From NCBI GenBank assembly GCA_963556145.1, contig OY744465.1:496001-560000 (forward strand): a stretch of DNA of 64,000 nucleotides. The letters run 5' to 3'. Below are positions 13,613 through 41,097 of the stretch, one piece after another (the first letter of the stretch is position 1; each line of letters begins with the position of its first letter). The notes under the pieces are model-generated. The model was not told the origin of the DNA and searched no databases. It saw only the letters and a list, made by a program, of their open reading frames with translations. Made by a program: the position numbers and the translations under genes. The DNA is from Hygrocybe punicea. Lineage: Eukaryota > Basidiomycota > Agaricomycetes > Agaricales > Hygrophoraceae.

Positions 13613-13615
13613 ATA

Positions 13616-14070
13616 CACATCAGGAGTTTCAACATTTAGTCAGGATCTAAAGTTATTTCTAAAGTTAGCGGCAAAATATAATCTTTAGATTTTCATTTAG
13701 GCCAAGTCTAAATATTGAATTTAAGTCACTGATAAAGGATTGTCTAAATTAATAATAAAAATTCATCTTTAGATTAGTCCTGCAATCAAAATAATTATCA
13801 GTGCTAAATTGTGAAGGGAAGGTGTATTTTAGTTTTGAGTTTGATAACATTTGCTAGTCCAAATTTAGGCATCACTTAAAGGTAGGCTGGAATTAGAACT
13901 TTTGGTAGGGCTTTGGTAGGGTCAAAATAATAAATTTAATGGATATCAAAATATATGATTTCGGCAGTTATCAAAAATCAAAATTTTCTATCAGAACTAA
14001 AGTTATTGCACGCTTGTCACCCGCCCATCACCCGCCCATCGCCTGCCCATCACCCAGCCATTGCCCAACC
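13616..14070 (+). repeat. E1 left terminal inverted repeat
   Basis: AT-rich, with many TCTAAAG, CTTTAGAT and ATTTAGG motifs, followed by repeated CCCATCACCCGCCC-type units (14015-14070). It is complementary to 38195-38596 and similar to both ends of the 1,978-bp element at 58972-60949. The repeated TCTAAA/TTTAGA words look like subterminal transposase-binding sites. Confidence 0.8.
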
Positions 14071-14079
14071 GTCGCCCAC

Positions 14080-14560
14080 TCTCATCCAGTTCTCAACGGC
14101 TGAGCTGTAGAGAACTTTCCTGGCACCCATCCATTTCCTCACCATCACCGTGTCATACAGAACTGTAATACCTGGTGCTCCCATCTCCTTATCAGAACCC
14201 TCTCCTCTCAACGGCTGAGCCATAGAGAACTCTGGTCGTGGACGCCTCATTGTCACCCTCTGGACAGCTGAGCCACAGAGTACTTACCTGGCACTCCCGT
14301 ACTCTCAATGATGCTTCCATCTCCTCATCAGCACTCTCTGCGGCTCAGCCGCTGAGAGCTTACCCGGCGCTTCCATCTCGGCACCCTTTCCTCTCATCAT
14401 TGGCACACCACTGCACTTTAGTGCTGCTTTCATATTCTCGCCGCCGTTGTGGCCTGACATTGGTACTTCTCAAATGGCTGAGCACCCGAGAACTTTACCG
14501 TCATCCCAGTGACTCAACTGCAGAGGCTCCGTTGTCGATACATTCATTGTTTTGAATTAT
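14080..14560. repeat. GGCTGAGCC/GAACTTACCTGGC minisatellite
   Basis: Imperfect units of roughly 60-100 bp carry CTCAACGGCTGAGCCATAGAGAACT, followed by TACCTGGCACTCCC and CATCTCCTCATCAGCACTCTC. The same family occurs inside E1 at 20100-20560, 26540-26960 (opposite strand) and 37440-37640. No gene here. Confidence 0.7.
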
Positions 14561-14633
14561 TATACACAATAGTTATTCAACCTTCAATTCCGTGCAACCT
14601 AGTACTGTCTGGAGGTTAGTACATTGTTGGCTG

Positions 14634-17600
14634 TTATTGCTCAGTGCGGACCTTAGGGAGTGAGAGGACAACAACATGTCCAGCGTTCCATTTCCTGCAG
14701 GTGAAGTGACAGAAAATTGAATCAGGATCCACAAGTTCCAATTCATCTCTCATCTCAGAAGACCAGAGCTGCGCCGGAAAATCGGGGTAAGAGCTGAAGG
14801 GATCAATAACATTGGGTTGTTTTTGGAGATATCTCCTCATAGCGAACATAGTTTTACCCTCCCTTTCAAATATGTGTTGGATACTCCCAGGTACCGGTGC
14901 CGAAGATTTGCTGACCCCTGGGTAGTACATGATCAGAATATTTCCCAGATGAGTAGATGATTGTGCATAAACAACTCCCAGATGCTTGAATCGTGCATGC
15001 AAAACCACGTTTTTACTTTTAACAACAGTCTGGAGGGTGGTAGGTGTTGAGACTTCTTGTTTCTCCTCGAGATCATCCTCGTCGTTACCCCCATCAATGG
15101 ATTGGCGCGGATCAGAACCATATGCCTTTCGTAAAAGTACCTTGCATTCCTGGATTGCGGGAGGGCTATCTGATCTTCCAATCCAACGTCTGAGCCTTGC
15201 TCCTTGCATGAAGGCTTCAGTCAATCTACTCTCTAGTTGACCTAGCCATAAATTGAGATTACTTAAAGCTGGACCAGTAATCGTAAACAGTGGCTCACCA
15301 AACTTATGATTGTGGGGTAAACGCAGCAGCAGACCGATAAGACGTTCAAATGGGAAACACCACCAGGATTGTACTGGTCCAAAGAGGAGGAGGAAATCGT
15401 AGATGTGAACAGCCAGATGGTGATATGTGTGATGGTTGGCATGGGGGTGGAGTTTCTTGAGATCATTTATCCATGCAACAATATGAGAGTGGAATGATGT
15501 GGCCTGTATCGCTGTCATTGTCCACAAACATGAAATAGTGATAGCAGAGATGAGAGCCATGGTGTGATCTAGTATTGCATGCATTTGTCATGCAGCATTG
15601 GTGGATGGATGCAGCTCGTCAACCCCCCACAAACTAATAAGAGCAATTGGAAGATATATCGTGTACATGGTTCGCCATTCATCAGCCTTTAGAGTTCCTG
15701 CTGCCGCATCTCCAAAGTTGTATGGAACTGACCTCACCCAGGATGGTGTAATTGTATCTTTGATGACATCCCGAACGCATTGGAGAACTTGAGGTGTCAC
15801 GACTTTGATGGGCTGATTTGGTGCTTCAAAAGGTTTCTTCTGCTGCTGTAAATTGTTAGTTGATTAACACTATCAGGTGTGAGTGTTGCATACCCAATTC
15901 ACAAGAGACTTAATGAAATCCCTTTTCCTAACAATTGCCCATGTATCTGAGGGATCAGGCTCAACAGTAAGGCCAAGGTAATCCACAACAAATCGTATTG
16001 TGGGCAAATTTTTTTTCTGCAGTCGCTCTGAGAGTTTCTCTAAAGTTGGTTCGGGTGTAATAAGAGCAGTAAGAAGAGAATGGATTTCGTGAACATGTTG
16101 GGAGCAGCGTTCATTCATTGCATCTGAGGTAGGATTAGAGAATTTGTAGGAGAAGGGTCGGACAATTGGTAGTTTTTCAGTGGCAGCGGCAGCTGATAGA
16201 CCAAGTACATCTCGGGAATGGTATGAAGAAATACACTCAAGTATGCAGTGCATGCTATCGATGACAAGCTGCTGAGTTGGATTCCAGTATGGTATAGTGT
16301 TGCCGAAGTTCAGTTCGGTCCGGTTCCGAGCCTTTTTGGCGGAACCGCGAACTGAACTTTGGGTCCGGTTTGGCGCATGGCCAAACCTGGACCCGGACGG
16401 CATTGAACCGTCTCGCCGCGTTCGGTCTGGGTTCAGACCACGTCTGAACCCAGACCGAGGTTGGTTCACCCCGTGAGCTCTGTTCTCCTTGCGAATGGCA
16501 GGCACGTATCAATTGATACAGCGCTACACTTCGCGAGGTAGTTGGGCTGCGGGGGAGCCGTCCGGTGCTGCTGCTGCTGCTGCTGCTGCCGTCGCGTTGC
16601 TGCTGTTGCTGCGGCCGTTGGTGTTGTTGCTGCTGCTGCTGCTGCCGCTGCCATTGCTGCTGTTGCTGCTGTTGCTGCTGTTGCTGCTGTTGCTGCTGCT
16701 GCTGCTGCTGGCCGTCGTGGTTGTCGTTGCTGTTGTTGTTGCCACTGCTGGTGGTGGTGGTGGTGGTGGTGGTGGTGGTGTTGCAGCTGTCGCGCATCCG
16801 TTGCTGCCGGCGCTGCTGCTTCTGTTGCTGCTGCCGTTGCTGCCAGTGCTGTTGCCTCTATTGCTGCTGCTGCTGCTTCTGCTGTTGCTGCTGCTGCTGG
16901 CCATTGCCATTGTCGTTGCCTGGTTGCCATAGCCATTCCCATTTCTGTTGCCGCCGCTGGTGGTGGTGGTGGTGGTGGTGGCGGTGGTGGTGTTGCAGCT
17001 GTCGTGCGTCCGTTGGCATTGGGTTGACGTTGGCATCCATCTTGTGCCAAGATGGGTGTGGCCGCGACGTGGTCGCAGTCGAGTTCCCTGTCGCAAATGA
17101 CATTAGTAAAGTTAAGAAAAGCTTGAAACTGACCTTCGCGTTGAGTGTTGATGTTGTGTTGCGTGTTGATGTTGTGTTGCGTGAAAGCTACACGGTCATG
17201 GCCGGTCACATGATACCATTTAACACGAAATAGTAAGTCAAGAAATACGAAAAACAAATGAAATAAATACCGTAAAAATAGCTGCGTTCGCGGTTTGGAC
17301 GCGGTTTGGAGCCGTTCAGGAAATCCGGCGGGCCTTGAAACCCGGAACTGAACCCGCGGTCCGGTTCAGCACTTGGCTGAACTTAGACTGAACCTCGGGT
17401 TCGGTTCGGGGTTTGAACCGGGTTCGGCTAGGTTCGGAACCGAACTACGGCAACACTAGTATGGTAAATGCCAGAGTTCTGACCACTGAATACCGCAAGC
17501 CTGGAAAATCTTGGTTTGGTGGACAGAAGTCGGAGCATCCCTCCAGGATTCCACAAGTCTCCTCATTTCTTTATGATTGCGAACTCGCCAGTCCTTGAAA

Positions 17601-19521
17601 TTTGTCAAGCCACGAGTATCTAGGTGATGGCACTGGCACACGGAGCAGTAAAAGTGGCTGTTGTGAGATGCCAATGATGCAATTTTGCGAGCAGCAGGAA
17701 GGTCGTTGACAGCAAGGGCAATAGCGCTACAAGTTTGGCAACCTTTCTGGTATCTGGGGGTTCGAGAAATATATATTCCATCATCCCAAGCAACTACCAT
17801 ATCACTGACCAAAGGACGAATGTAATGATTGAGTTCTGTGAGGTGTGGTTCGGTTGGACCAGGTATTAACGAAAGGTACATATTTTTGGGTTTATGGCGA
17901 ATTTCGGGAGGTAAATTCAGGCAGGCTAAAAATATAATTCCACATGAAGTAGCGGAACCCTGTGTTCGCAACCCCTTGACGTTGAAGAAATCAACATTTA
18001 GGGCAAAAAGATAACGACCTTCATCACCTGGGCGCTGGATGAACAAGTGGCCAGGAACAGGCCCCTCAAGACTCCGAATGAATTTGACATCAAATACGCC
18101 TCTGATTGGATTGGGGTTTGAGGATTGCCGAACAGATTTGAAGCAGTCATCGCATGACTTGTCCATCACAGCCTCATATTGTGATAGCAGTCCTGTCAGG
18201 TAGTCAGCGAAATGGTGATAGACAAATGGTTTGATTGGTTTTTGTTGACCATCCCCTGATGCATCCTGAAGTAATGGCATGTCGCAAGGGCCGTTTTCGG
18301 GGATAGGTCAGTTTGTGCAATGCTCCAGATAAGCAGCATTATCTGGCTTTGCAAGAGGTGGATAGGTGGCGTGGCATGCAGGACATACTGCGTATATGGT
18401 ACTTCGACTAACTAGGTTGAACTTCGCAAGGGCTTCCTTGATAGAGCGAGGGACTTGCTGCATAGTACGGGCTTGTAGTGGATCCATGCTTCCGTCAGGT
18501 TTTGCAGAAAGAAGGCGAATAACCAGACGTAAAAGGCCCATGATGAGATCCCCTGCGCGCTGGCTGACTCCCATGATGACGCAACAGACAACACCAAGAA
18601 ACATTGAAACCTGGGCAGCAGTAGTGCATTCATTGACAAGACACTCGTAATGGTGACCTGTAGCACCGTGAATACATATTCCAAGGGAAATTTGATGAAT
18701 TTTCTTACTAGAATCAAAGATCATGGGAGTACGGGGTCGAGGAAAAGAGCATCGTAGTTTGCTGGCCCGCGTCGTTAATGTCTCAAGCTTTGTGGAAAGT
18801 TCCTGTTTTGACTGTACCACCAGTGGGTGGCGACAATTGACTTTCTCCAGGGCTTCACGGAGGATGTCGATTTCCAATTCGGCTTTGCAGAGGATCTGGT
18901 GAGATGGCACAGACAAACTCTTCAGAGTAAGGGATAGGCATGTACGTATGTTCTGCAATATGTCAAGGGATTTTGTGGTCTTGTGATCGGTGCGGCGAAG
19001 AGGTCGACGTGCTGAAGAGGAAGTGGGTAAATCCGGTAATGCAGGGGTTGCGGTCGGTGGGGGAGCAGATATGTTTAGACGAGTGAAAGCATTTATCAGC
19101 TGAGATGATTCTGTAGGAAGCTGCAAATTAGCTGAGGGGGAGACAGAAAGGGATGCAGGAGGTTGGACACTAGTCGTCAAGTTGAGATGGCACACACCAT
19201 CAATAATGTCATCGATATGAAGATCGGGTGTAACCTGATTGCTCTCTGCCTGGAAAGCCATGCGGGATGTCCAAAGTTTTGAAGGCTGGTTAAATGGATC
19301 AGGTGCCGGATCCAAAAGGGTCGAAGTGAGAACTTGCACAGCGTAAATTTTGGGATCCAGGGTTGTATCTGGTCCTGACAGGGCTGCATCAGCGTCGAGT
19401 TCCAATCTGATATGAGCCAGATTGCAGTCCTCTCGACTGAAGAAGAGAATGGAAGGCCATTCGCATTGATGCGGCGGCACTCCAAACAGGTGCAGTATAC
19501 AATGGCTGATTGACAGGGCAT
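14634..19521 (-). pseudogene. TNP2-type (Plavaka/CACTA-like) transposase of E1, disrupted
   Basis: Read from 19521 down: a CTCLEC cysteine start; a long N-terminal part with VCPACHATYPP ... HC zinc-binding signature near 18310-18390; the TNP2-like core (VYHHFADYLTGLLSQYE, LNVDFFNVKG, HFYCSVCQCHHLDTRG, ending WHLPYW) continuing across the MITE into PTQQLVIDSMHCILE; then HHLAVHIYDFLLLFGPVQSWWCFPFERLIG near 15330-15430. One intron at about 15845-15891 is likely. Lesions: a frameshift after the first about 25 codons; in-frame TGA at 18308-18310 (before PIPENGPC) and at 15585-15587; and the MITE at 16295-17458. Excising the MITE with one target copy restores the frame exactly. It would recognise the E1 ends. 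Confidence 0.85.
16295..17458. mobile_element. hAT-type MITE (1,164 bp) inside the E1 transposase
   Basis: The inverted ends TAGTGTTGCCG ... CGGCAACACTA are flanked by the perfect 8-bp duplication gtatggta (16287-16294 and 17459-17466). The ends are rich in GGTTC/GAACC words. The middle (16565-17020) is a CTG/TTGCTG and GTG microsatellite with a roughly 225-bp internal duplication (the GTGTTGCAGCTGTCG block occurs near 16778 and 17001). It encodes only poly-Gln, poly-Ala, poly-Leu or poly-Cys in various frames, with no transposase. Non-autonomous. Confidence 0.9.
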
Positions 19522-19687
19522 GTATAATGAGAGAAGACCTAGGAGATGGCTCATATGGGTGAATGGTGAAGGACCACGACTAGGAGGTCGATGGGGATGG
19601 CAGATGGGAGATCAGGAAGGTAGGGGACCAAGAGGACCAAAAGGTAAGCTCGCTTATACTTTGTACAGGCAAACGATGGCAGAGACC

Positions 19688-20550
19688 AGAGGCAGACAAG
19701 GCGGACAATGAAGGCGGAAGAGATCGATGGGATTAAGGGGTTGATGGGGATGGCAGATGGGTGATCATGAAGGTAGGGGACCAGGAGGACCAAAAGGTAA
19801 GCTCGCTCGTACTTTGTATGGGCGAACGATGGCAGAGACCAGATGCGATGGGAGTGACCTGAACCAGTAGGGGACCACGAGGGAACCAGGAAGGGGACCA
19901 GGTAGGCAACCACGAGGAAGACCAAAGGTAAGCTTGCTAGTACTATGTACGGGCGAATGAGGGGACCTAGGAAGGGTAGTTGCTCGCTGGTACTTTGTAC
20001 TGGCGAACGTTGAAGAAAACAACACAACTAAGTCAGAAAACAACACGACTGAACTGACGTGTCAACAGGGACAAACATCCCAGCTCTTCACAACTGAGTC
20101 GTCAAAGAGCTCTCATCCAGTTCTCAATGGCTGAGCCATAGAGAACTTACCTGGCACCCGCCCATCTCCTCACCGTCATCGTGTCGTACCTGGCGCTCCC
20201 ATCTCATTATCGGCACTCTCAGTGGCTGAGCCATAGAGAACTCTGGGTGCTCCCGTCTCCTCACCATCATGGACTCCTCATCGTCGCCCTCTCAACGGCT
20301 GAGCCGCAGAGAACTTACCTGGCACCTTGTCTACCCAGCGCTCCCATTTCCTCATTGGCAGGCACTCGCTCAATACCCCACCTGGCACCCCTCCTTCTTC
20401 ATCATCACCTCTCCATGGCTGAGCTGTAGAGAGCTTACCTGGTGCTTCCATCTCGACCTTAATGGCAGTGCTTCAGTTCCACTGTCCTGGCACTCCCATC
20501 TCCTCATCAGCACTCTCAGCGGCTGAGCCGTAGAGAACTTATCTGGCGCT
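19688..20550 (+). repeat. Left arm of an internal inverted repeat pair in E1
   Basis: About 860 bp matching the complement of 26533-27395. It contains AAAGGTAAGCTCGCT ... ACTTTGTA units near 19640, 19790 and 19930, then the GGCTGAGCC minisatellite. The pair encloses the coiled-coil, RGGYNL-type and WD40 genes. No target duplication was found, so these may be two opposite copies of one repeat rather than ends of a single element. 20550-20714 has a 27-bp tandem duplication (ATGTACAGTATTATTTGACCA) and nothing else. Confidence 0.7.
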
Positions 20551-20714
20551 CCCGTCTCCTCATCGGCCTCTCAACAGCCGTGCCATGCCGCATTTCCATC
20601 AGTTCAGCTTAATCGCGTCCTTTCTCCATTCAATTTCATGACCATTTCCATCCTGCGGAATACATTATTCCACCACACTATGTACAGTATTATTTGACCA
20701 CATTATGTACAGTA

Positions 20715-23055
20715 TTATTTGACCATCAGTTCCCTCCATACAAATTTCATCCTTGCTGGTTTCAGCATGCGTATAATATACTTGTCTGTCTGCCAGACGA
20801 GCCAGTTCTCATTGTAAAAGCAAGCAGGTAGCTCACAAACGGGATCGTGAACACTGACGGTGTTCCTACCATCCCTTATCCTGTGACACGGTTTAGCACC
20901 CCTGCGGGATTGCGTTCTTGCAATCCTTTGGTACTTGTCATCAATGATCTTCATCTCGAGGTCGCATCGCCAATGCATGGTCATTGGGCGATACGCAATC
21001 TCGAGATCGTCGGCGTCGACGTCGCTGTCTTCTGAACTCATCCCGTCTTCTCCCAAATTTTCCATCACTGACTTTAACCACTCCCAATTGTCGACATCTG
21101 GTGCCTCCTCCTGTTCTTTGCAACTGATGGTCTCCTTTATAATAGTTAGCCGACGATTGAATTTCTGGGGGCGATTGTTTAGCTTGTTTTTTGTTGAAGA
21201 TTTCCGCAGACGCACCACAACACGTCGTTCTCTCCTCCTAGCAAACTTCAACTGCTTATCCTTGTGTGCGATTATTCGATCTTCCACTTGTGCCGGAGTT
21301 TCCAGTGTATCCATATCTGTCAGCTTTGGCTGACTGAGCCTCCAGGCGGCCCTCACCCGCTTGTATCTACCTTGCAGAATGTTGTGAAAGTAGGCCGTTG
21401 ACCTTTCTGGCAACCGAAGTCCTGATTTCCTACAAGCTTTTCTCATCTTCTTCACCAAGATGTCCAAGATGGCAGCGTTCCATTCACTGTTGGGACCAGC
21501 CCCAACGTCGAAATGGAGGTCCTTCAAATCAGGCTCTGCTCTTCCTTCCTGTGCACGTGAACAATTGTAGGGGTCGCAGACCTTTGTCCCATAAAGTCAT
21601 TGTCACCATCGACTTTGAAAACTTCCTTGAAAACTTGGCAGGATATATCCTGTTCAGAGGTCTGTCAATCAATAGCGCAGAATGCGACACACATGCACTC
21701 ACCAAAAAAATTGACCGGATTTCAGCGGTCTCCACCTCCTTTATCGCCAGGACATCCTGATCAATGTTCGATTTTCATCCTCGGCGCCTGGTAGTCTGTT
21801 TCAGTGGCCTGCAGGCGGCTTGCTGCAGTATTAATCGCAGCATGTCGAGGGCTTCTTCTCCTTTATGCTTCTGTCGTCTAGATGCCTTTGACCTATGGGG
21901 ATACTTTCCTTTGCCCATTGTGCGTCCATTATCCTCACTCGATTCACCTTCTGTTTCCTCACTAGTTGAAGATGCAGTAGTATCCGACTTGGCGTTGCTC
22001 TCACTTCCTGTGTCTGACGATTCAGAGTCCATTGTCTAGCATGCCATAAACTTTCTTGCATCGACAGGCAAATATCCAGCCGACGCACCTGTTCATGATT
22101 TCTTAGCACGGGAGTCCCTGAGCAGTTCTTGTGTTTTGATCGCAGTTCTGCCATAAATTTGCTGGTGGATGGAGTTGCTGCTCTGGATTTCGGTTTCTTG
22201 CTCGTGTATGCTGGTCCCTTCGGTGTTTTCTTTGATCCACTCACCTCCAGTGGATCACGGACGGGTTGCTGCATCACGTTGGACCATCGGGCTTCCATAG
22301 CTGCAATGTCTTGCTCTTTCTTGGCCTGAGGGGTGTCATTCTAAATATGATGACTTATCACAATAATACACACCAGCAAGCATCTCAACATCATGTCAAC
22401 TTCTTTCCGGTGCGCTTCCTCCCTTGCTTGGACTCTCGCATTCAACTCCATCATAAGAGCTTCAAATCGCATTTCATATTCGTGGCGAGTTGCTTCTTCC
22501 TTTTCTTGCACAAATTTCTCTAATTCCTTCAATCTCATCTCCAGTTTTGCCTCCATGTGTTGGACAGTGGTTTGATTCTTTAAATGAGTGAGTAAATTAC
22601 ACTTAGGACTTGTTGGGGACGAACCTTCTGTCTCAGTTTCCAGATTCTATACTGAGAGAACTCTAGCTGCTCTCAGAGATACTTCTCATCACGTGAGTAT
22701 CTATCATCCTGTTTTTCCATGATTTGACGTTTATGCTGAATGCTATGATTAGTTTCGATGCTCCTTGAGATATTTGCCGCCAACGTACAGGACTGACAGT
22801 CTGATCATTCATCCGTCCCAGCGTGAAGTCGTTGTCGTTCATCTCCTCATCCTCGTCATTGAAGTGGTCTTCTACTCCCAGGACCGGAGCATTTGTTGTC
22901 ACCGAAACGTCCATCTCCACACCTGAAGCAGCCGGCACTTCTTGACCAGAGGGAACTGAGTGAGGATCAGAGGGAACTGAGTGAGGATCAGAGGGAACTG
23001 AGTGAGGATAGAAAGATGTGCCGTGAAGTTCTCCTGGACTCAGTCCATGAGACAT
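20715..23055 (-). CDS. Repetitive mushroom coiled-coil protein, multi-exon
   Basis: I read this as one minus-strand gene with several introns. Exon 1 (from 23055) has a triplicated 7-residue PHSVPSD unit from a 21-bp repeat, then an acidic patch with DDHFNDEDEEMNDNDFTLGR-like composition. Next is a coiled coil (22560-22390: EAKLEMRLKELEKFVQEKEE). Then comes a basic, Ser-rich stretch (SGSKKTPKGPAYTSKKPK), a Ser/Glu-rich patch (22032-21900) and a long C-terminal part. That part has NWEWLKSVMENLGEDGMSSE near 21080-21020, GAKPCHRIRD near 20905 and LPACFYNENWL near 20820. I recall this architecture as a high-copy family in Agaricomycetes; no biochemical function is known to me. Exon borders are uncertain, and the middle (21530-21780) may be frame-broken. 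Confidence 0.55.
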
Positions 23056-23715
23056 GGTGTCGGGGTGTGGGATGGAGAAAGAAGATGATTGTCGGTCGGA
23101 AGGCTTTTAAGACTAATGTAATTCTTGTTGAAAACAATAATTATTGAGGCATCTTCGACAATGACTCACTGACGCTCCGGTCGTGGAATAGAAATTATAT
23201 TTATTGTTTTAATTCTCTGGCTCGGCGGTCTACGTGATAGCGCGCTTTTCCTAAATGCTTCCGGTCATTTATTGTTCCAACTCTGACCCTGAAAAATAGA
23301 AATTATATTTATTGTTTTAATTCTCTGGCTCGGCGGTCTACATGATAGTGTGCTTTTCCTAAATTCTTCTGGTCATTTATTGTTCCAACTCTGACTCTGA
23401 AGGCAGCAGCCTATCTCGAACGATCGCGCCCTTCCTAAATTCCAGTTATTTATTATGATGACGATGCCTGACAATTAGTATGGCTACTATCCAACTCTGG
23501 CCTATTGTATGACGATGCCTGACATCTTCCAATTGCCCACTCCTATCGCCCGGATGTTTTTATTCATATCGTGTGGTTGCGCGCATTTATTTCCAACAAT
23601 ACAGTTAAATTGTTGAAATACACCTGCAATTGCCTCACATTGCCCGCTCTCATTGCCCGCTCCCATTGCCCGCTCTCATTTCCCGCTCCCATTGCCCTCT
23701 CCCATTGCCCCATTC
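23056..23715. repeat. Promoter region with 108-bp tandem duplication
   Basis: Separates the divergent coiled-coil gene (minus) and RGGYNL-type gene (plus), so it probably holds both promoters. 23187-23294 is duplicated as 23295-23402. Apart from one G/T change, the differences are C/T or G/A transitions, for example CGTGATAGCGCGC versus CATGATAGTGTGC. A TGACGATGCCTGACA block is also repeated (near 23459 and 23508). CCCATTGCCCGCTC repeats at 23640-23710 lie directly before the next start codon. Confidence 0.7.
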
Positions 23716-24457
23716 ATGGTTTCAGAATCAATCCCCCCTTTCTTTGAGGCTGGGCCTCCGCCACCTTCATATCCCCTCCTTACCATCCAGGCCGACCTCG
23801 CCTATGTGTCCACTCCTGCTGTCCCTACGATAACAGCTATGGAGGAACTCAGCCTGCGTAGAGGTCCGACTCCGACCAGTCATGCTCCAAGTCGTGCTCC
23901 CAGTCGTGCAGCCAGTCGTGCTCCCAGCTCTGGCCTGAGTCACACAGTCAAACGCTTACCACCCCACTCCTCATCTCCCTACATCGTACCGGCACCTAAG
24001 GTTAAACCAAAGGTCGCTTTCACTAATGTGGATTTAGCGTCCGAATCGGCCGAGTCATCGTGCCTTTCCAATATTGATGAGTTGTCTGAGTCAAGCGATG
24101 AATTGGAAGATGGCCTCATACAAAAGCCTGCTGGTCAGGTTGGTTGGCCCAACAGAGGTGGATACAATCTTGAGGATGCCATGAATTGGCCACCAAAGAC
24201 GTTTAAGAAATTCCAGGTGGGTGGAGAACTTCCTGCTGTGTTGTGCCTGCTGACAGTGAATACAGAGATATGTGCACAAGCTCATTAACACTCACCTCGA
24301 TACCACGCAAAGTTACCAACCACAGAAGGAGAATCTTCGCCAGGCTGTGCGAGATACGGTCAGCTTTTTTTTTCTGATCGTGAAAATAACTCTAACATAC
24401 AAACAGGCAATGGCAGCCTTTCCTGAACTTGCAAAATACGAAGGCTTTGGCCAGTGA
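23716..24457 (+). CDS. Small repetitive mushroom protein with RGGYNL motif, probably truncated
   Basis: Start ATG 23716 (MVSESIPPFF); an in-frame ATG at 23839 (MEELSLRRG) is an alternative. A Ser/Pro/Ala/Arg-rich N-terminus includes tandem APSRAPSRA units, followed by an acidic stretch and PNRGGYNLEDAMNWPPK. Two introns with good borders (GTGGGT...ACAG near 24218-24265 and GTCAGC...ACAG near 24359-24407) join it to VHKLINTHLDTTQSYQP and AMAAFPELAKYEGFGQ. Relatives I recall continue with W after this point, so the final TGA may come from TGG. Function unknown. I remember the family as high copy in mushrooms. Confidence 0.6.
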
Positions 24458-24497
24458 ATGATGTTATGATGTTACGTTTAAAGAATACATCACGACG

Positions 24498-24782
24498 TGA
24501 GAAATTGACGATACAGAAGTTGGCTGCGGGGACAAAAGGGAAGGGTCGGGAGTAAATGTGTCGTTGCAATTGTCATTGTAAATAATCAGTCGTTGCAGTG
24601 AATTGAGAAATTGATGATACGGAGACAAAAGGAAAGGGTCAGGAGTAAATGCATCGTTGCAATTGTCGTTGTAAATAATCGGTTGTTGCAGTGAATTGAG
24701 AAATTGACGATAGAGAAGTTGCGGAGACAAAAGGAAAGGGTTGGGAGTAATGCGTCGTTGCAATTGTTGTTGTAAATAATGA
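24498..24782. repeat. Three tandem units of about 93-102 bp
   Basis: Each unit starts GAGAAATTGA(C/T)GATA and includes GACAAAAGG, GTCGTTGCAATTGT and TGTAAATAAT. The array fills the gap between the RGGYNL-type gene and the WD40 gene, and its start may be the point where the former lost its C-terminus. Confidence 0.75.
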
Positions 24783-24992
24783 GAGTCAGGTGGCCATGCA
24801 AGCGACAGGAGCATCAGTCGCTCTCTCGTCACCTACTCTCATCGCCTAGAAACAAAATAGGTAGAACAATTAGCAGGAACAGAGACTTGCACCTACATAA
24901 AGGGCGGGTGTCTCTTGTTTCGCCACCCATAAAATCACTTGTTCGCACAGGTCGCCCACTCCATCGTACTCGCTCACACTCCCTATCTAACC

Positions 24993-32176: not shown

Positions 32177-33472
32177 TTTTTGAGGTCTTCCTTGTGATCT
32201 TTGTATCCTGTATAGCTATCTCGTTTAGGTTAGAATTCCAGGTACGGGTACCCACGGGTATCACAGGTCATCCATGATTGGACTCAAACCAGTGACCCGT
32301 AGTACCCGTACTCAAAACCCGTACGGTGCTTCGGTACCCTTGACTGGCGCTAGTCGTAGCCGTCGAGGTGGTTGTGGTGGTTGTGTGATGAACCCGTGAC
32401 ACACCGCCAAACCACAGGTACGGGTCACGGTATGGTCACGGGTGATGAAACCAAACACCCTACCCGTACCCGCACAACCCGTTTTGGTAATACCGCGGGT
32501 TGACCCAAACCCGTGGTCATCCCTACATACAGACGTGCAAATGGCTAATCCATTTCCCAAGACTCATAAGGGTCGGCATCCCAGTATGGATCGTCTGGAG
32601 CACCCTTGACGAGCCCTTACGCGAATCGCCCCAACCCGAGGCACAGAAATATTTACCGAACAACGCGCAGGTCCAGGCTGCGATCCAGCAGCAGCGGGAA
32701 GAGCGACTAGCATCAACTGCTGTGCCCTTTACCGAAGGGAGCCCTCAGCCGCCCTCAGGTCCTAACAATACGATGCCTCCACTGGCTCAACAACTTCCCC
32801 AGCCAAGCCCGGGTTCCCGCCAAAAGCGTGGGGAAACGTGGCAGCAATTTTTCGTTCGGCAAACGGCCCGCCACGAGAAAGTTGCCACCTTGGAGACTGA
32901 ACAAGAAAGGGCATCTTGCCTAGCTCGGCAGAAGGAAAGCGAGCACTTCCGTGGGCCAGGCAAGAGAGGGGCCGCCGTCTTCCATTGGTTGGACGTGGAT
33001 GGCTTTTGCATGAGAATGAGAGTCAACTACCGAGAGATAGAGGATCTGTGGGAAGACAGGTCAATGGAGCATATGCGGTACAATGCCTTCAAGAGGGAAT
33101 GGGACATCTGCACCAAATTCGCCCCTGATGCGGTGGATTACGAGGACCCGTTCGGTAATGATGAATACGATGATCCTTTGGAAGAAGGAGAGCTGATGCA
33201 ACCTACTGGTCCCATGGACACCAAGCACTCGGAGAGTCATATGATACCTGTGGCCACGGCTTCGCTTCCCGCTGGAGTCATACCTCAGTACCACCCTGGG
33301 GGCTCACGCAGGACTCAAGAGGAAGTTGACTGGATAGGATGGATGGACTGACTACTACATCTGGAAGGCTACTGACTAGGTCAAACCATGGGAACCTGAT
33401 CACGTGACTGACCAGGCACAACTACTACAAGTGCCCCTCCTCCTCATGGTGACGTCCTCGTCACCATACCGC

Positions 33473-34266
33473 TGTAAAGGCGAGGTCGGGGTGGCTGCGG
33501 AATAATAATCCTAAGCCTGTGGGGGTCAGCGTGAAAGTGACTAGGAATAGTCTAGTGAGCTTCAGTAAGATGATAGGATGTAAATGATAAGAAGCCGCCA
33601 AGTAAACTACTGAAATCTATCAAGGCCGGTCAAAGCTGATGAAGCCGACGGTGTCGGGTACGGCGGGTCGGGTGTCGGGTGATGAGAAACGTAGAGATTA
33701 AGATGGTAGAAGGACGGGGAGAGCGTCGAGGAAACCGACGAGTAGTGTGTGCAATGGATTTTACTGAGAGACTAATTCTCAGAGAGAGGAAACGGGGGAA
33801 CTGGTTTCTTATTTTGAGACGGCGCTTGGGCACCGTTTTTATACTACAAATTTCTGTACCTAGATTCGGACGAGAGTCCTCGGCTGATGAGAGGAAACAA
33901 AGGAGAATAAAAATGGGGAAGTAGGAAGAGCGTTGCAAGGCGACGATGACAGGGAAAATGGGTGGAAGATATCAAAACCATAAAAGATGCAATATACTTT
34001 ACTATATCCCCATAAGGGAGACGCTAGGCGTGAATAAGGCAAGTCCGATGTCGGGATCCCAGTCCGATGAGATCTATCTTTGATATTTGAAGTTCCGTGA
34101 GTTTAGGAGATAGACCGACCAGGTACATGAGCGGCCGTGCTAGTCGGTATGCATCGGGTTGCGTCGGGTTGCGTCGGGTTCGAGCGTAGATTGCTAGAGA
34201 TGTCGGGTTCAAGCGGATTCGCTAGATATCGATGTTACGGCCTCAGAGGGTCGAGGACCCTCTACA
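33473..34266 (-). repeat. Single LTR related to the 2075-7913 element
   Basis: 794 bp, TGTAAAGG ... CCTCTACA, with ccgc on both sides (33469-33472 and 34267-34270), so it could be a solo LTR with a 4-bp duplication. It shares blocks with the 899-bp LTRs, such as GTGGGGGTCAGCGTGAAAGTGACT, GAATAAGGCAAGTCCGA and TTGCGTCGGGTTCG. Minus orientation is assumed by analogy. Confidence 0.75.
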
Positions 34267-34739
34267 CCGCTACTAAAAGAAAACAAAAAGCAAAACAAAA
34301 CTGACCAAGAAAAAAACTCTCCAGTCATGACTCCCAGTCCCTCACGATTCCCTGGGCCTTATACGTGAGGTGGGACCATATCGTCCTCCAAGATTGTTGG
34401 GGGTAGTAGATGACCAAACTGTAACTCTGCTCTGCTCCTCCATCCTCGAATGCCTCTGGGACTCACATCGCAGGGTAGGATAAAAACGTTCAAAACCATA
34501 AGTTCTTGTAGCCCAGGGTGTGAGTTCTTGTGATCCAAAAATAGACTGGGTGGTTCGTGCAAAAGTAAATAGGTACGGTGCTGTCGAGCAGTGATGGTTC
34601 ATAGATAGGTTGAATATCCAATAAATGTCGAGGGTGGGGAAAGGGGGTGGGACGGGACAAGGTACGGTGTAAACAGGGGAGAGGGAAAACGTACAGGTGC
34701 ATTGGGCCATGCGGTGGCATCGGGGATTCTCGATATGAG

Positions 34740-35720
34740 GGGACTAGCGCTGGGGTGCTAAGTGGTCGCGGCGGTGACTCGTTTGGGTCCCTATGGGTCG
34801 GGGAAGTCGCCAGGGTCGAGAATGAGGTCGCGGGGAGCTGAACGAGGGCTCGAGGAGCTGGGTATGGTTCAAGAATCCAGCCGAGAGATGGTGACGTGGC
34901 GGAACGCGGTGGGGGTCTGGGAATGGTGGGCACAGTGGTATTGGATCGAGGTGGGGTGCTCCAGGATGGTGAACGGGTGGGCCGCGAGCTTCGTGAGTCA
35001 GTCCGGGGCTGGGTATGTTGGCAGAACGGGGCCGTGCGATGGTGACGTGGCGGGTGGCCCGGGTGTCTGAAAACAACGGCAGGGGCTCGTTTGGCGCAAT
35101 GGAGGGGAACGGGGGTTCCTGGCCAGTGGAACGAGGGCACGGGAGGTTGAATGGGTCCGTGTGGGGCTGGGGATGCATGGGAAACAGGGACGCGGAATGT
35201 TGACATGGTGGTAACGTGGAGTGTGGCCGGGGCATCTGAAAACCATGGTGGGGGCTCGTTTGGTGCAATGAACAGGAACGGGGGGTTCTGGCCGGTGGAA
35301 CGGGGTGCAGAAAGTTGAATAAGTCCATGTAGGGTTGGGGTACGCGAAAAAATGTGGGTCGATGGTGGTGACGTGGCAGGACGTGGGCACTTAACTTGGA
35401 CGGCGACGGGGGTTCATTTGGGCAGGACCGGAACGCTGGGTCATCAAGCGTGGGTGCAGGGGTTTGGGTGAATGCAGGTGGAGCCTGGTTACACAAAAAA
35501 ACGGGGGGTCGAAAGTGATGACGTGGCAAAATGCCGGTGGGTCTTGAGGCGTCAAAAAACAGGGTCGACGGCGCTCTTGAGGTGACGTGGGGCATGGTGG
35601 GGCCGTACGACGTCGAATGACAGCATGGGGGATGGTCCTGGGTCTGAAAAATGAAGGTTAAGTGGTGTGACGCGGCCTGGTGCTGGGTGTTCAAAACGGG
35701 TCGCACCCGCATTTTTGGAG
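34740..35720. repeat. GC-rich minisatellite with GTGACGTGGC words
   Basis: Imperfect units of about 150-175 bp with GGTGACGTGGC, GGGGCTCGTTTGG(C/T)GCAATG and GGGGGTTCTGGCC(A/G)GTGGAACG. The minus-strand frame over this stretch is Pro/His/Arg/Ser-rich and has no domain, so it is not annotated as a gene. 34271-34740 is AT-richer with nothing recognised. Confidence 0.65.
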
Positions 35721-37310
35721 CGACGTGGGGCGTCGGTGGGTTGGACGAGAGTGCCAGGGGGGTAACTCAAGTACCGTAGGACCTAGAGTAAGGGAAAAAG
35801 TCTGCCGTTGCACAGCGGTGGGTGGTGAGGCCGAAATAAGTCGTCTCACGAGAAAAAAACGTCAGGAGTGAGAAACCGAGAGAAAAAGAGGTGCGTGGGT
35901 CGAAAAACACTCTCATCACCACGTTGGAGTGGTACCAAGGTACCACTCCGGGGGCTCACGCAGGACTCGAGAGGAAGTCGACTGGATAGGATGGATGGAC
36001 TGACTACTACATCTGGAAGGCTACTGACTAGGTCAAACCATGGGAACCTGATCACGTGACTGACCAGGCACAACTACTACACCGCTGAACACTGGCATCG
36101 AGATATCTTCTCCATCCATGGCATCGGCGACCGCCACACCCCCGCGGCAGCTCCAAATTTTGGAAACTCCCTCGACGCCAATCTTTATGAGCGCACTGGA
36201 TTTGATTGGGAAGCTGGCACCATCCCCTTCAAGGGTCCTCCAGCATCGGTTGCTGAGTGGGAGCGAACCCTCAACGTTTTACAGGATGCTCACTCTCAGG
36301 TAGCTGATGCATACAAAGGCCCGATAGCTTCCTTCGTCGCACGTTTGATCAGTAATGACCCAGTGGATGTGCCCCCACCCTTGCCATGGGACCTGAGCTC
36401 GTCGAGTCTCTATCCGCTACACGAAAGACTAGACCATTACGTTGCAATTGAGTCACACGAAACGAGCAACTCACAGAGAATATATTTCCTTCATGCTGCA
36501 AACGGTGCCGAAGGTGCCAAAAGTATCGACTGGCTGCTCACAGTGGACAGTCCAGTCACTGCGCTGCAATGCGCTCGCTCGTGCATGATGGGTATCATAG
36601 ATGTTGTCCATTTTCTTTCAGCACGAGGTATCCCCTTCAACACCCTCCTCCCTTGCCCCCCACACTCAGCAATTCACGACCCTCCGCTCCCTCCCATCTC
36701 TCTCGGTGTGCACGCAATAGGCTATCAGCCTGATGCTGCTGATTATGCGGCTTATGAAGCAGCTCGAGACACTTTCCTCCGTTCTTCCCATGCACGCGTG
36801 GCCATTCTCAAGGGCGGTATTATCTGGCGCCTCGTGATGGAGTTCATCAGCCCCAGGTGCATTCTCACTGGTCCCTCTGATGCAGCCCTCACACGGGGAC
36901 AAGTGTTCCATTTTCGTTCTTCAGACAATATCTTCATTGATGACTGCCTCGATGAGGACAAGCTTGATCTCATCTGTGGCGTATACAGGGTGTATACTGG
37001 TAGTTATTCTTTCTAATTCAGTCCGCCATATACTAACTATGATGTAGGATCAGGCAAGCAGGTCTCCCATCTCTCTTGGTGGCCAAAACACTCAACGTGG
37101 CAGAAGAGCCTTTTCAACGTTGGCTACTGGTGTCCCGCTGCCGAAGACTGGTTCCAGACACGTCTCGAACTCATCTGACTGAACAAAGCATCATGTAGGA
37201 TTGCCACGAAGTGGTACGAGACGCTTCCGAGGCATGGAAGATCGCTTCGATTGGCCAAGAAACTTGAGGATGCAGCGAGCCGATTTCTCAAAGGGCATGT
37301 TTTTCCTTAG

Positions 37311-38194
37311 TGTGTGTCTCGATGGCCGCTCTTCATCATTGTCATTGCAATGCCGACCCCGCCCCCCCTTTATGTATATATTATGAATAATATTACAAAA
37401 CATTCCGCCCAACATGTATATCTGCAAACAACAATGGAGTAAAGGTACCGACAGTGAGTTCTCTACAGCTGAGCCGTTGATCAGAGGGTGCTGATGGAGA
37501 AAGAAGGGATGTCAGGTGACCGTTGAGAGAGCCAATGAGAAAACAGGGCGCCAGGTAAGTTCTCTGCGGCTCAGCTGTTGAGAGGGTGACGAGTAGGTGT
37601 CCACAACTGCGACTCAACCGTTGAGAACCGGAAGAGAGGCTCTTTGACGACTCGGTCACCCCCGATCATGATCCCCATCGTTCGCCTGGTCTCGTGGGTC
37701 AGGTCACTCCCATTGTCACCATCTGCTCTCCTTCCTCACCTGTGCCGTTAAGCAGATCCCCCTGAGTCTTCTGCCTGACGTCACTCTGAAAGGCCTGGCA
37801 AAATCTACTGTTGTAAATCGTGCACGGCGTGACAGCCCAGGCCATGGTAATAGCGTAGCACTTGGGCTTCCAGAGGAGACGCTCAGCATTGGTCAGCCGG
37901 CGCTCCCTCCTCCACCCATTGCTATATTGAGATACACGCTAATCACTCTTCCATTGCATCCGGGTATGCTAAAAGCTACCTGTAAAGGGAGGTGTGTTGC
38001 TCGGGAGGAGCAGGGCAAGGGGATCAAGCTCATGGGCAGAAGGTCTGCCATCCTCATCACTTCTAACCCTGAACAGCGATCCCACCGCTTTAGCGTGTAC
38101 CTGACTCTGTTCTGGCGTCAGATCCGCCGCCTCATCCCTAACAACCTGTAATCCTACCCACAGGCATTTGTAGCCCCATATTGGCAATAGTGAG
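37311..38194. repeat. GGCTGAGCC minisatellite, then sequence with no recognised gene
   Basis: 37440-37640 has about three copies of the GTTCTCT(A/G)C(A/G)GCT(G/C)AGC family on the opposite strand to 14080-14560, so the family sits near both E1 ends. 37650-38194 contains no gene I can support. Confidence 0.5.
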
Positions 38195-38596
38195 TGGGCA
38201 ACGGTTGGGCAATGGCTGGGTGATGGGCGGGCGATGGGCGGGCGACAAGCATGCAATAACTTTAGTTCTGACAGAAAATTTTGAATTTTGATAACCATTA
38301 AATTTATTATTTTGACCCTACCAAAGCCCTACCAAAAGTTCTAATTCTGGCCTACCTTTAAGTGATGCCTAAATTTGGACTAGCAAATGTTATTAAACTC
38401 GAAACTAAAATACACCTTCCCTTCACAATTTAGCACTGATAATTATTTTGATTGCAGGACTAATCTAAAGATGAATTTTTATTATTAATTTAGACAATCC
38501 TTTATCAGTGACTTAAATTCAATATTTAGACTTGGCCTAAATGAAAATCTAAAGATTATATTTTGCCGCTAACTTTAGAAATAACTTTAGATCCTG
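38195..38596 (-). repeat. E1 right terminal inverted repeat, inner part
   Basis: Complement of the left arm (13616-14070), from GGGCGGGCGATGGGCGGGC to GATCCTG. The outermost 25 bp of the arm are displaced to 40955-40979 by the two tandem units inserted between them. Confidence 0.85.
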
Positions 38597-39065
38597 TCTA
38601 TGTTCGTGCATGCAAGGTATTGGCGATATAAGGGGAAGAGGTGGTTATTTGTAGTTAAATGGGTAATTGGCTTTTTTGGGGGAAAAAACATGTGGGGGGT
38701 TTTTTCAAATCCGAAACAAGAGTCCAAACCTAATCAGAGTCTGGTGAGCTGCGAGGGTGGGTGGGAACAGCAACCTCGTGAGCATGGAAACGATTAGGAT
38801 GTGAAGAAGCGTCGAATTGGGGGGGAAATGTCAATGAGAGATGGGTGGTGATGATGTAGACGCGGGTGCTAGGGAGTGGCGGGTGGGTTGAAATTGAAGG
38901 GATGGCGGGTGGGGGAAAGAAAATGCTCTGTTAGGGCAGAGAAGAACTTGAGCGATGCAAGTTGTCGATGGGCAGAGATGAGGATCACTGCGCCACAACT
39001 TGCTAAATTCGTACATAGACATAATTCTAATTTTACACTCATGTTTCGTGTATTTTAGAAAGTCA
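38597..39065 (-). mobile_element. Unit A: 469-bp deletion derivative of unit B
   Basis: It begins TCTATGTTCGTGCATGC and ends TTTTAGAAAGTCA. Its first 158 bp (38597-38754) match the start of unit B, and its last about 153 bp (38913-39065) match the end of unit B; a short unrelated middle replaces the gene. Unit B follows without any spacer. The empty site can be read from the opposite E1 arm (CCTG then ACTAAATG), and no target duplication is visible. Confidence 0.8.
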
Positions 39066-40954
39066 TCTATGTTCGTGCATGCAAGGTATTGGCGATATAA
39101 GGGGAAGAGGTGGTTATTTGTAGTTAAATGGGTAATTGGCTTTTTTGGGGGAAAAAACATGTGGGGGGTTTTTTCAAATCCGAAACAAGAGTCCAAACCT
39201 AATCAGAGTCTGGTGAGCTGCGACTCCCAAGGTATTAGGAGCCCAGCGACGCGTTAGGCGAAGCAGACTCCCCATGATTAGGAGGTGGGTGACATTACTC
39301 ACAGTATCAGCGGAGAGGAGGCATTGCGTAGCGTAGGAATGGTTCTAGGATTGGGGATCCTCAGAGAGGTCTCCGCCGCTTGCGCCGGAGCGAATATCCG
39401 TGCGAATATCCGGGCAGCTGCGGTTGTCACGGGTGCGCGCAGGGGATCTGGATCTGCGGTGTGAGTCGCTGGGTCGGTTCGCTTCGCGGCTGCGCCGGGA
39501 GGGGGGTATATTGGGATTGCCTACAGGTGGGATTGGGATGCGCTGATCCGCCTGTGATGGTGTGTAAGGAGGAGGCGTGGCGTGGGCATGCGTGGCGCAA
39601 AGTGGTGCATGCAAAGTGCAAAAGAGGCAGTGTGATGGCATGCACGGTGCAATGTGTGGCATGCGGGGGTGCAATGTGTGGCATGCGGGAGTGCAATGTG
39701 TGGCATGCGCAGTGCAAGTGAGGCAGTGTGAGGCAATGTGTGGATGATATAAGAAGGCGGTAGAGGGTGGCGGTTGTGGCGTCGTGAATGGTGTATGGTG
39801 ATAAGAGGGGAGCGTGTGGGAATGATGGGTGACGACGAAAGGATTAGCTGGGATTAATGATACGAGGGGGGGGGGACTGACCCGGAAATCCCGGTCGTTG
39901 TCTTTGATTCGTCGGTTGTCCCAATAGACTTCCTCTTTGGTCTGGCGTAGTACGTCTTCATCGATGATGGATAAGTTGTATGCGCCGGCGGGTGTGGGGA
40001 TGGCGATGTGCCAGAGTCGTCGCTGGCGTGCTTGGTAGAGGATCAGCGTCTTTTGGTCTAGGGGGTCACGGGAGGATCTCATCTTGTGAATTTGAAGTTT
40101 GCCCCAGAAGGAGGCGAGCATGGCGACGCGGTCGGTGGGCCAATCGGCTTCTTCCATGGCTACTATCATCCTTGGAACGGCTTGGCAAAAGTCTTCCCAT
40201 TTGATGTCTTTGTCGTCGAGCGCTTTGTTGGCATTATGGGTGGAGGCGGCGGGGACCCAGGAGGTGGAGCCGTCCGCCTTGCGAGCAATGACCATGGCGT
40301 CGTCATCCACGGAGGCGGGGTTCCGGAGGGCCTCATCGAGGCCGTCATTAGTGTAATACCAAAGCTCTACGTATTCACCTTTGTTCATCTTCCTGGTGGC
40401 GTAGGTGGAAGGGATGACTGGGGTCGTGGTGGGCATGGGGCGGTCAGGGATCGGGATGTATTTGGTTTTGTTCTTCTTCATCTCTTCCTTACGGAGGGTT
40501 TGTTGTTCTTCGGCGGTTGCGATGGCTAACTGATCTGCTGCGACTTGGGCCAGGGCGAGTTGTTCTTCCTGTTGGATGATTTCGTCGTGTATCTGGTCGC
40601 GCCATTGCTGTTTGTCGACGTTGTTCCCGAGCTGCCAGATGTTCGTTAGTATCTGAATCGCTTGGGCCTCGGTTGTGTGAGCGTTGACGAGGGGAGCCCG
40701 AGTAGGGGCATAGGCAGCGGAGGCGTAGTCGGGGCAGTGTGCGAGAGCAGGGTCGAAAAGAAGCGGAGGCATGATAGGTAGTGAGTGCGGAGGAAAGAGA
40801 GGGGAAAGAAAATGCTCTGTTAGGGCAGAGAAGAACTTGAGCGATGCAAGTTGTCGATGGGCAGAGATGAGGATCACTGCGCCACAACTTGCTAAATTCG
40901 TACATAGACATAATTCTAATTTTACACTCATGTTTCGTGTATTTTAGAAAGTCA
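39066..40954 (-). mobile_element. Unit B: 1.89-kb gene-bearing mobile unit of unknown class
   Basis: Same ends as unit A, enclosing one minus-strand gene (39345-40772). No terminal inverted repeat, no LTR and no target duplication were found. Head-to-tail units and lack of duplication recall rolling-circle elements, but the canonical TC start and CTRR end were not found in either orientation. Confidence 0.65.
39345..40772 (-). CDS. Repetitive mushroom protein, Ser/Arg-rich C-terminus
   Basis: The start chosen is the ATG at 40772 (MPPLLFDPALAHCPDYASAA). It is followed by AIQILTNIWQLGNNVDKQQW, a Gln/Glu/Ala-rich helical stretch (EEQLALAQVAADQLAIATAE), a basic turn (KKNKTKYIPIPDRPMP), then KGEYVELWYYTNDGL, WEDFCQAVPRMIVAMEEADW, ASFWGKLQIHKMRSSRDP and KTLILYQARQRRLWHIAI. 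An intron from about 39890 to about 39555 would remove a CAT/GCA-rich low-complexity stretch and join a short RS-rich tail (SDSHRRSRSPARTRDN). I recall this as another high-copy family of Agaricomycetes, Gag-like in composition but with no zinc knuckle. Function unknown. Confidence 0.6.
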   Translation of the reverse strand: MPPLLFDPALAHCPDYASAAYAPTRAPLVNAHTTEAQAIQILTNIWQLGNNVDKQQWRDQIHDEIIQQEEQLALAQVAADQLAIATAEEQQTLRKEEMKKNKTKYIPIPDRPMPTTTPVIPSTYATRKMNKGEYVELWYYTNDGLDEALRNPASVDDDAMVIARKADGSTSWVPAASTHNANKALDDKDIKWEDFCQAVPRMIVAMEEADWPTDRVAMLASFWGKLQIHKMRSSRDPLDQKTLILYQARQRRLWHIAIPTPAGAYNLSIIDEDVLRQTKEEVYWDNRRIKDNDRDFRVSPPPLVSLIPANPFVVTHHSHTLPSYHHTPFTTPQPPPSTAFLYHPHIASHCLTCTAHATHCTPACHTLHPRMPHIAPCMPSHCLFCTLHAPLCATHAHATPPPYTPSQADQRIPIPPVGNPNIPPSRRSREANRPSDSHRRSRSPARTRDNRSCPDIRTDIRSGASGGDLSEDPQS

Positions 40955-41097
40955 ACTAAATGTTGAAACTCCTGATGTGATATCCGCAACAGCCTGAGTA
41001 ACCAGTCACATGACTTGAGGAAACTTGGAGACTTGGTCGTACATTATAACCACTGACTGGTACTGACTGACTGGCAGGATACATGGACTCAATAACC

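Follow-up and report, generated by a model that had tools for sequence, protein, structure and literature searches.

A degraded five-gene CACTA transposon in Hygrocybe punicea and the gene and motif array that it has in common with a hAT element

The window is a stretch of 64,000 nucleotides of contig OY744465.1 of Hygrocybe punicea. Positions 13616-40979 are a degraded copy of a CACTA (EnSpm/TNP2) transposon, which we call C7. Its exact 18-bp ends lie at 13616-13633 (+) and 40962-40979 (-), and the triplet ATA is read beside each of them (13613-13615 and 40980-40982). The left terminal inverted repeat (13616-14081, +) pairs with a right arm (-) which is 89% identical to it in the inner part (38192-38600) and 100% identical over the outer 25 bp (40955-40979). 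The right arm is broken by a 2,354-bp insertion (38601-40954) composed of two units in tandem, the ends of which are repeats of 158 bp. The original prediction described matching ends, inverted arms and a 3-bp duplication; these are real, and seven complete pairs of such ends were read in the genome, but the insertion that splits the right one of the ~450-bp repeats had gone unnoticed. Across the 92.2 Mb of the genome, the 18-mer end has 17 occurrences and its reversed control none; a 25-bp version of the end, with up to 3 mismatches, finds 262 ends genome-wide, compared to none for its control. Given these differences from the controls, the matches are not due to chance.

The tnp2 transposase gene (14637-19533, -; PF02992, E 8.6e-12) was mapped from C8, another copy of the element, as three stretches (17458-19533, 15876-16294 and 14637-15863). 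It is interrupted by an insertion (16295-17458) which has hAT-type ends and an 8-bp duplication, GTATGGTA. The core of the element contains three gene regions: a coiled-coil gene (20970-23106, -), an RGGYNL gene (23707-24543, +) and a WD40 or beta-propeller gene (24899-26506, +), whose Pfam match is below threshold. The fifth gene, a long hypothetical gene called 796 (27795-37013, +), is in three pieces (27795-28467, 32525-33274 and 36082-37013). It is split by a hAT-like insertion (28468-32525; 8-bp duplication CATACAGA, PF14372 below cut-off) and by an LTR-like insertion that begins and ends with a direct repeat of 160 bp (33275-36081, borders approximate). All five genes that had been predicted are therefore present, but tnp2 and 796 are broken by nested insertions in this copy. 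Likewise, the 27-kb element is a real unit, but about 10.4 kb of its length consists of four later insertions.

The assignment to the CACTA/TNP2 group, already made in the original prediction, is supported by the ends, the duplication and the transposase. The ends are of the CAC..GTG type (CACATCAGG in this family, family 1, and CACTGCTGACAC in a second one, family 2), and PF02992 is above cut-off in the window copy, in C8 and in copy B of family 2. A 3-bp duplication is found in 7/7 copies of family 1 and in both family-2 copies that were read at both ends. Repeated motifs in the subterminal regions are a trait of CACTA/EnSpm elements; in the window copy, motifs of one kind (type II) are present near both ends, at 14088-14360 and at 37457-37584 (-). 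In the reading frames, CSVC and HLAVH were picked out by eye as mere candidates for the C(2)C and H(3-4)H signatures between the second D and the last E of a CACTA transposase.

Seven complete copies of family 1, including C7, were read in the genome. Their duplications are TCA (C8, C39 and C2a), TGA (C1 and C34), TTG (C2b) and ATA (C7). C8 and C39 have their flanks in common, so these two copies are one insertion that was later duplicated, which brings the number of independent insertions to six. In C39, the left end has a changed first base. The six other copies are 16.6, 17.4, 17.7, 17.7, 20.5 and 38.7 kb long. The dN/dS ratios among family-1 copies range from 0.24 to 1.33, so that the copies look relaxed or dying. 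An empty allele (ATA without the insert) had been proposed as a check; a search for such a site within the same genome gave no spanning match. The tnp2, coiled-coil, RGGYNL, WD40 and 796 families are all inside the element in 7/7 complete copies, which upholds the earlier claims that the four non-transposase families lie inside it and that residence on a transposon accounts for copies of them.

The core is flanked by internal inverted repeats, one on the side of tnp2 (19690-20880, +) and one on the side of 796 (26535-27395, -). They form inverted pairs in all seven copies and in an eighth, degraded copy on C40, and they adjoin the places where tnp2 and 796, which face outward, are inferred to start. 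The repeats contain arrays of 25-27-bp dyad motifs, and the motif differs between family 1 and family 2. In the window copy, type I motifs start at 19648, 19801, 19932 and 19982 (19648-20008, +), in or beside the tnp2-side repeat, and at 27077, 27127 and 27258 (27077-27284, -) in the 796-side repeat; type II motifs occupy 20119-20539 and 26546-26966, respectively. The element thus has family-specific, repeated non-coding motifs which are also found upstream of the transposase. The core has one orientation in C1, C7 and C34 and the opposite one in C8, C39, C2a and C2b (3/7 inverted), and it is inverted in one of three family-2 copies. For family 1, the AU test does not reject a history with only one flip (p 0.20 and 0.45).

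Family 2 has ends that begin with CACTG, outer repeats of about 500 bp and duplications AAT and GTA in the 2/3 copies read at both ends. Its tnp2, 796, RGGYNL and WD40 products are 27-40% identical to those of family 1. The plan is the same: tnp2 and a 796-like gene lie on opposite sides of an RGGYNL and WD40 core, which is placed between internal inverted repeats; in copy B, 694 bp of these repeats are 99% alike. This two-tier plan is common to the two families without DNA similarity. The RGGYNL and WD40 genes, which are arranged head-to-tail in family 1, stand head-to-head in family 2. No coiled-coil gene was detected in those family-2 copies that were read, and the third of them gave no 796 either. 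Among the divergent matches in the genome, 17 of 28 for RGGYNL are at most 3 kb from a WD40 match (random mean 0.06), and 16/28 divergent RGGYNL and 9/23 divergent WD40 matches have no tnp2 match within 20 kb.

The original prediction placed the families inside such ends rather than mainly outside them; for 796 the reverse holds literally, with 47 copies of lower identity outside family-1 ends, none of which (0/47) has a tnp2 match within 10 kb. Two of these copies were read, one of them to both ends, and both belong to the same hAT element. The carrier of a 780-codon relative of 796 is 9,328 bp long and has short inverted ends (TAGTGTTGCCACGGCTCGG), an 8-bp duplication (GATCTGCC) and a hAT dimerisation domain (PF05699, E 3.4e-13); a second copy is 99.9% identical over 6,655 bp, and the hAT element is high-copy. 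The motif array of family 1 is upstream of 796 in this carrier too. Between the CACTA and the hAT versions of 796, dN is 0.23 and dS is 1.31. The type I sites of C8 and of the hAT element are 82% alike, a value biased upward by the choice of sites by motif match, and their 30-bp flanks 31%.

Genome-wide, there are 247 type I sites and none for the reversed pattern. Among the best 100 of these, 26 are in family-1 elements, 60 are at most 4 kb upstream of a match to the 796 family, and 14 are in neither class; the random value is 0.4%. The family-2 motif has 135 sites (reversed: 0), of which 66 of the best 100 are within 5 kb of an RGGYNL or WD40 match (random 0.4%). One burst gave rise to many of the motif sites, and these site counts are therefore not independent. 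Sites of the family-2 motif flank 12 of the 23 divergent WD40 loci on both sides within 20 kb.

Because the same layout recurs in family 2, RGGYNL is paired with WD40, and 796 is present in a hAT element, the five families look like the transposon's own genes and not like host cargo. We propose, with about even confidence in the reading as a whole, that the element is a five-gene autonomous CACTA transposon. TNP2 would cut and paste it via the terminal ends. The internal repeats would be a duplicated promoter region from which tnp2 and 796 are driven outward together, and recombination between the repeats would invert the core as a by-product, leaving tnp2 and 796 each joined to its own promoter. 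As its most likely function, the 796 protein, alone or with the product of a core gene, would bind the dyad arrays and keep the promoters of the element active or unmethylated, a form of self-recognition and anti-silencing similar to that of VANC. Such a role would also explain why the gene and the sites are found together in the hAT element. The presence of 796 and its motifs in an unrelated kind of transposon hints at an undescribed mode of self-recognition. More tentatively, CACTA and hAT elements of mushrooms may have a portable module in common, made up of a protein of about 790 residues and its dyad array; the array would mark the promoters of the transposase and of the protein's own gene, the protein and the motif diverging together so that each family would protect or activate its own kin only. 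This module would be an independent fungal counterpart of VANC, and the doubling of the array in CACTA would have made the core invertible. The gene and the array may also travel together merely because a promoter accompanies its gene.

VANDAL elements belong to the MULE superfamily. A study of VANDAL and VANC in Arabidopsis (PMC5735166) describes multi-gene elements with family-specific non-coding motifs, which are also found upstream of the transposase and differ among related families. The present element is likewise multi-gene and has family-specific motif repeats, including upstream of the transposase, but it is a CACTA element, its 796 protein shows no VANC domain, and its binding to the motifs is a prediction. 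No homology to VANC (DUF1985, DUF287) was detected for 796 of C8 (E up to 0.01) or for the relative in the hAT element (E up to 0.1), which is why 796 is not classified as a VANC protein. At the same thresholds, Pfam scans of the two proteins returned no family, and a poor structure model of 796 (pLDDT 63) matched no solved fold.

The CAC..GTG ends, 3-bp duplication, inverted repeats and PF02992 are common to CACTA/EnSpm elements, including fungal EnSpm; the terminal repeats of ~450-500 bp, the five genes, the internal inverted repeats and the invertible core distinguish the present one. Starship giant transposons are also large multi-gene fungal elements, but here the transposase is a DDE-type tnp2, the terminal repeats are long, the duplication is 3 bp, and no tyrosine-recombinase captain was found in the ORFs scanned (20 from the window and 6 from C8). 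According to Kojima 2025 (PMC12730594), TET/JBP is an accessory gene carried across unrelated superfamilies of DNA transposons in Agaricomycetes, including EnSpm. The accessory gene again spans unrelated superfamilies here, but it is 796, in CACTA and hAT, with an array upstream; no TET/JBP domain was found in the same 20 and 6 ORFs (short exons left out), as the original prediction had stated.

An alternative which we regard as unlikely, yet the strongest of those considered, is that 796, RGGYNL, WD40 and the coiled-coil protein are helpers of transposition (end binding, excision, synapsis), comparable to ORF2 of plant CACTA elements, with no role in anti-silencing, the arrays being helper sites or ordinary promoter elements. 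Plant CACTA helpers bind subterminal regions, and type II motifs are also found in the outer subterminal regions here. According to PMC4158355, plant CACTA elements have two ORFs, and ORF2 aids excision and transposition. However, the type I and family-2 arrays are at the starts of genes and not at the ends, and the hAT element in which 796 works, if it works at all, has unrelated ends.

It is improbable that the internal repeats bound an independent transposon nested in the CACTA element and amplified with it. They resemble long terminal inverted repeats and are in part 73% like the outer subterminal region, but the core has no transposase match, all long matches to the internal repeats are within family-1 elements or relics, and family 2 repeats the two-tier plan without DNA similarity. 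No free core copy with its own duplication was seen. Passive cargo captured from the host, as in the original reading of "host-like genes", is slightly less probable still: four non-transposase genes do lie inside the ends and the WD40-like gene is host-like in kind, but the gene set is identical in 7/7 copies, its layout recurs in a divergent CACTA family, RGGYNL and WD40 are paired at 17/28 divergent loci, and 796 is common to a hAT element. A regulated flip-flop of the core, in the manner of phase variation and with an effect on expression, is the least credible: both orientations exist in two families, but tnp2 and 796 retain a repeat arm in either one, no recombinase was seen among the ORFs scanned, ordinary recombination between ~99% identical repeats suffices, and recurrence is unproven, a single family-1 flip fitting the data.

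The coiled-coil, RGGYNL, WD40 and 796 families, described in the original prediction as multi-copy in mushrooms and with no known function, gain a home, as they are transposon genes here, and counts that include them among the genes of the host would be put right. Should the gene and array module be a device for recognition or anti-silencing, transposons that act against silencing would have one more independent example, next to VANC and TET/JBP. The idea is directly testable, the candidate protein (796) and the candidate sites both being named.

The original prediction of a bounded element with matching ends, inverted arms and an ATA duplication is confirmed by exact 18-bp ends (13616-13633 and 40962-40979), both of which have ATA as their outer flank. 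The left arm (13616-14081) matches 38192-38600 at 89% and 40955-40979 at 100%, the right arm being in two parts with a 2,354-bp insertion between them. Across the 92.2-Mb genome of 42 contigs there are 17 occurrences of the 18-mer (reversed control 0), and 262 ends match the 25-bp end with at most 3 mismatches (control 0). The bulk of these probably belong to short relatives like the 2-kb element at 58972-60949 of the window, which has low-complexity repeats inside, CCA on both sides, and ends that differ from those of the large element by two mismatches.

Complete pairs were drawn from these ends and from a left-arm search in which 40 of 290 candidates were scored. Seven were read, named here after their contigs: C8 and C39 (17,714 bp each), C1 (16,564 bp), C2a (20,510 bp), C2b (17,402 bp), C34 (38,694 bp) and C7, the window copy (27,364 bp). 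Each is flanked by a 3-bp duplication. C8 and C39 have common flanks and are 99.7% identical, and are thus counted as a single duplicated insertion; the first base of the left end of C39 is altered. The two loci (C8:5758738 and C39:5826889) form a segmental duplication between two contigs.

Five gene families are matched in each of the seven copies: tnp2, a coiled-coil gene, RGGYNL, a WD40/beta-propeller gene and a 796-codon gene (hereafter 796). The tnp2 of the window copy matches PF02992 (E 8.6e-12); the Pfam match of the WD40/beta-propeller gene is sub-threshold, its repeat motif being seen by eye. C8 has an open 796 frame, and its tnp2 is divided into frames of 901 and 409 codons, probably by a short intron. 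Single-sequence searches of other data gave 12 proteins related to 796 and 7 to RGGYNL, and a profile search gave 76 for the latter.

Comparison with C8 defines four later insertions in the window copy, about 10.4 kb in sum: one in tnp2 (16295-17458, with hAT-type ends and an 8-bp duplication), two in 796 (28468-32525, hAT-like with a Pfam match under the cut-off, and 33275-36081, with direct repeats at its ends) and one in the right arm (38601-40954). They explain the 27-kb length and the fragmented "long hypothetical" of the original prediction. Additional, decayed copies lie on C40 (~3.79-3.81 Mb) and C39 (~5.66 Mb). In-frame stops of decayed copies, in matches to the coiled-coil, RGGYNL, WD40 and 796 genes, appear mostly to be TGA. 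CGA-to-TGA change is the expected outcome of deamination at methylated CpG, and such stops suggest that the decayed copies are methylated.

The window holds other repeats. A perfect 1,358-bp inverted repeat (42611-45691), with a gap of 200 N (43969-44168) in its 365-bp spacer, has the appearance of either an unresolved hairpin or an assembly artefact. Another, at 10065-11199, is 522 bp long and 98% complementary, with a 91-bp spacer. LTR-like direct repeats of 300 bp (2075-2374 and 7015-7314) are 99% identical and spaced by 4.9 kb. Thirteen tandem units of 138 bp (54975-57046) lie mostly within an open frame (55010-56962, 650 codons) whose predicted product is a protein of 46-residue repeats.

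Internal repeats of up to ~1.05 kb (arms 99.3% alike in C8) occur as inverted pairs in all seven copies and on C40, with one arm shortened or broken in several. All long matches to them are within elements of this family or its relics. They enclose a core, which with respect to tnp2 and 796 points one way in C8, C39, C2a and C2b and the other way in C1, C7 and C34. In trees of the outer parts the inverted copies do not group together, but the AU test does not reject a single flip (p 0.20 for the outer parts, 0.45 for the core). In C8 the repeats lie no more than ~250 bp from where tnp2 and 796 are inferred to start. A MITE-like repeat with inner inverted arms is present in two 99% identical copies (27429-27728 and 49081-49380), the one inside the element adjoining an internal repeat.

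A second, divergent family is known from three loci that were fetched (copies A, B and D). Among divergent matches genome-wide, 17/28 RGGYNL are within 3 kb of WD40 (random mean 0.06), and 14/23 WD40 and 12/28 RGGYNL are within 20 kb of a tnp2 match (random 1.35 and 1.62). Both ends (CACTGCTGACAC, one with one mismatch) were found at two of the three loci, with target duplications AAT and GTA; at the third, the 20 kb read contained one end. At 27-40% protein identity, all three share tnp2, RGGYNL and WD40 with the first family, and two share 796; no DNA similarity between the families was found in ends or internal repeats. The order is common to both: outer repeat, outward tnp2, internal repeat, core, internal repeat, outward 796 or 796-like gene, outer repeat. 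In copy B the repeats are likewise at most ~250 bp from the inferred starts of the tnp2 and 796 relatives, and the core of copy A runs opposite to that of B and D. RGGYNL and WD40 are head-to-tail in the first family and head-to-head in the second. The coiled-coil gene was not detected in the three loci; relatives occur near some other divergent RGGYNL/WD40 loci. The five families in seven of seven copies and a divergent family with the same plan replace the proposed host-like cargo by a five-gene CACTA element.

The internal repeats carry dyad motifs. Of type I (GCTYGCTNGTACTTTGTACNGGCGAAC), C8 has 5 sites and C7 has 7, each of them inside or next to one of these repeats. Type II, whose core is GGCTSAGCC, is found in the repeats, and the window copy has it close to its two outer ends as well. 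The second family has its own motif (GCGTGTCTGGGAACCCAAAACACGC and variants), 8 of whose 9 sites in copy B are in internal repeats and which has no site in C8, the hAT element described below or 30 kb of window DNA outside the element. Type I has 247 sites genome-wide (reversed pattern 0). Among the best 100, 26 are in elements of the first family, 60 are upstream of a 796-family match by at most 4 kb (51 of these by at most 700 bp) and 14 are in neither place; the random figure is 0.4%. The second motif has 135 sites (reversed 0); 66 of the best 100 have RGGYNL or WD40 no more than 5 kb away (random 0.4%), and sites among these 100 stand on both sides of 12/23 divergent WD40 loci. One amplification gave rise to many of the sites, and the counts show association rather than independent events.

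With the 796 protein as query, at least 59 matches were obtained (57 of 213 candidates scored). At 59-67% identity there are 47, many with open frames of ~780 codons; a tnp2 match lies within 10 kb of none of them and within 20 kb of three. One of the 47, read to both ends, is in a 9,328-bp hAT element (C3:89497-98824) with ends TAGTGTTGCCACGGCTCGG, an 8-bp duplication (GATCTGCC) and a hAT dimerisation domain (E 3.4e-13). This hAT family has very recent copies: over 6,655 bp the C3 element is matched at 99.9% identity by one on C6, which was read at one end. The CACTA and hAT versions of the gene differ by a dN of 0.23 and a dS of 1.31. Five type I sites lie upstream of the hAT version. Over 15 site pairs, CACTA and hAT sites are 82% alike, a value biased upward by the choice of sites for similarity to the motif, and their 30-bp flanks 31%. 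Sites so alike between unalignable flanks suggest that selection has kept them.

Searches of the open literature yielded no earlier description of such an element, Repbase and closed journals being outside the scope. We have high confidence in the structural reading, a five-gene CACTA element with its own genes and internal inverted repeats. What is established is the structure of the element, its set of genes, the two orientations of its core, the arrays, and a 796 gene common to CACTA and hAT. In the proposed mechanism TNP2 would move the element by cut-and-paste, tnp2 and 796 would be driven by the internal repeats as a duplicated promoter, and 796 or a partner would recognise the arrays. 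The main rival is a helper role in transposition, like that reported for the second ORF of plant CACTA elements (PMC4158355). By homology, in Pfam scans of its C8 and hAT versions, 796 is not a VANC, the anti-silencing protein of Arabidopsis VANDAL elements.

The proposed mechanism is patterned on VANC, which targets family-specific repeated motifs, upstream of the transposase too (PMC5735166), and on fungal TET/JBP genes, which transposon superfamilies have in common (PMC12730594). Anti-silencing would be the most likely role of 796, and a five-gene CACTA element with this function has, as a whole, about an even chance of being correct.
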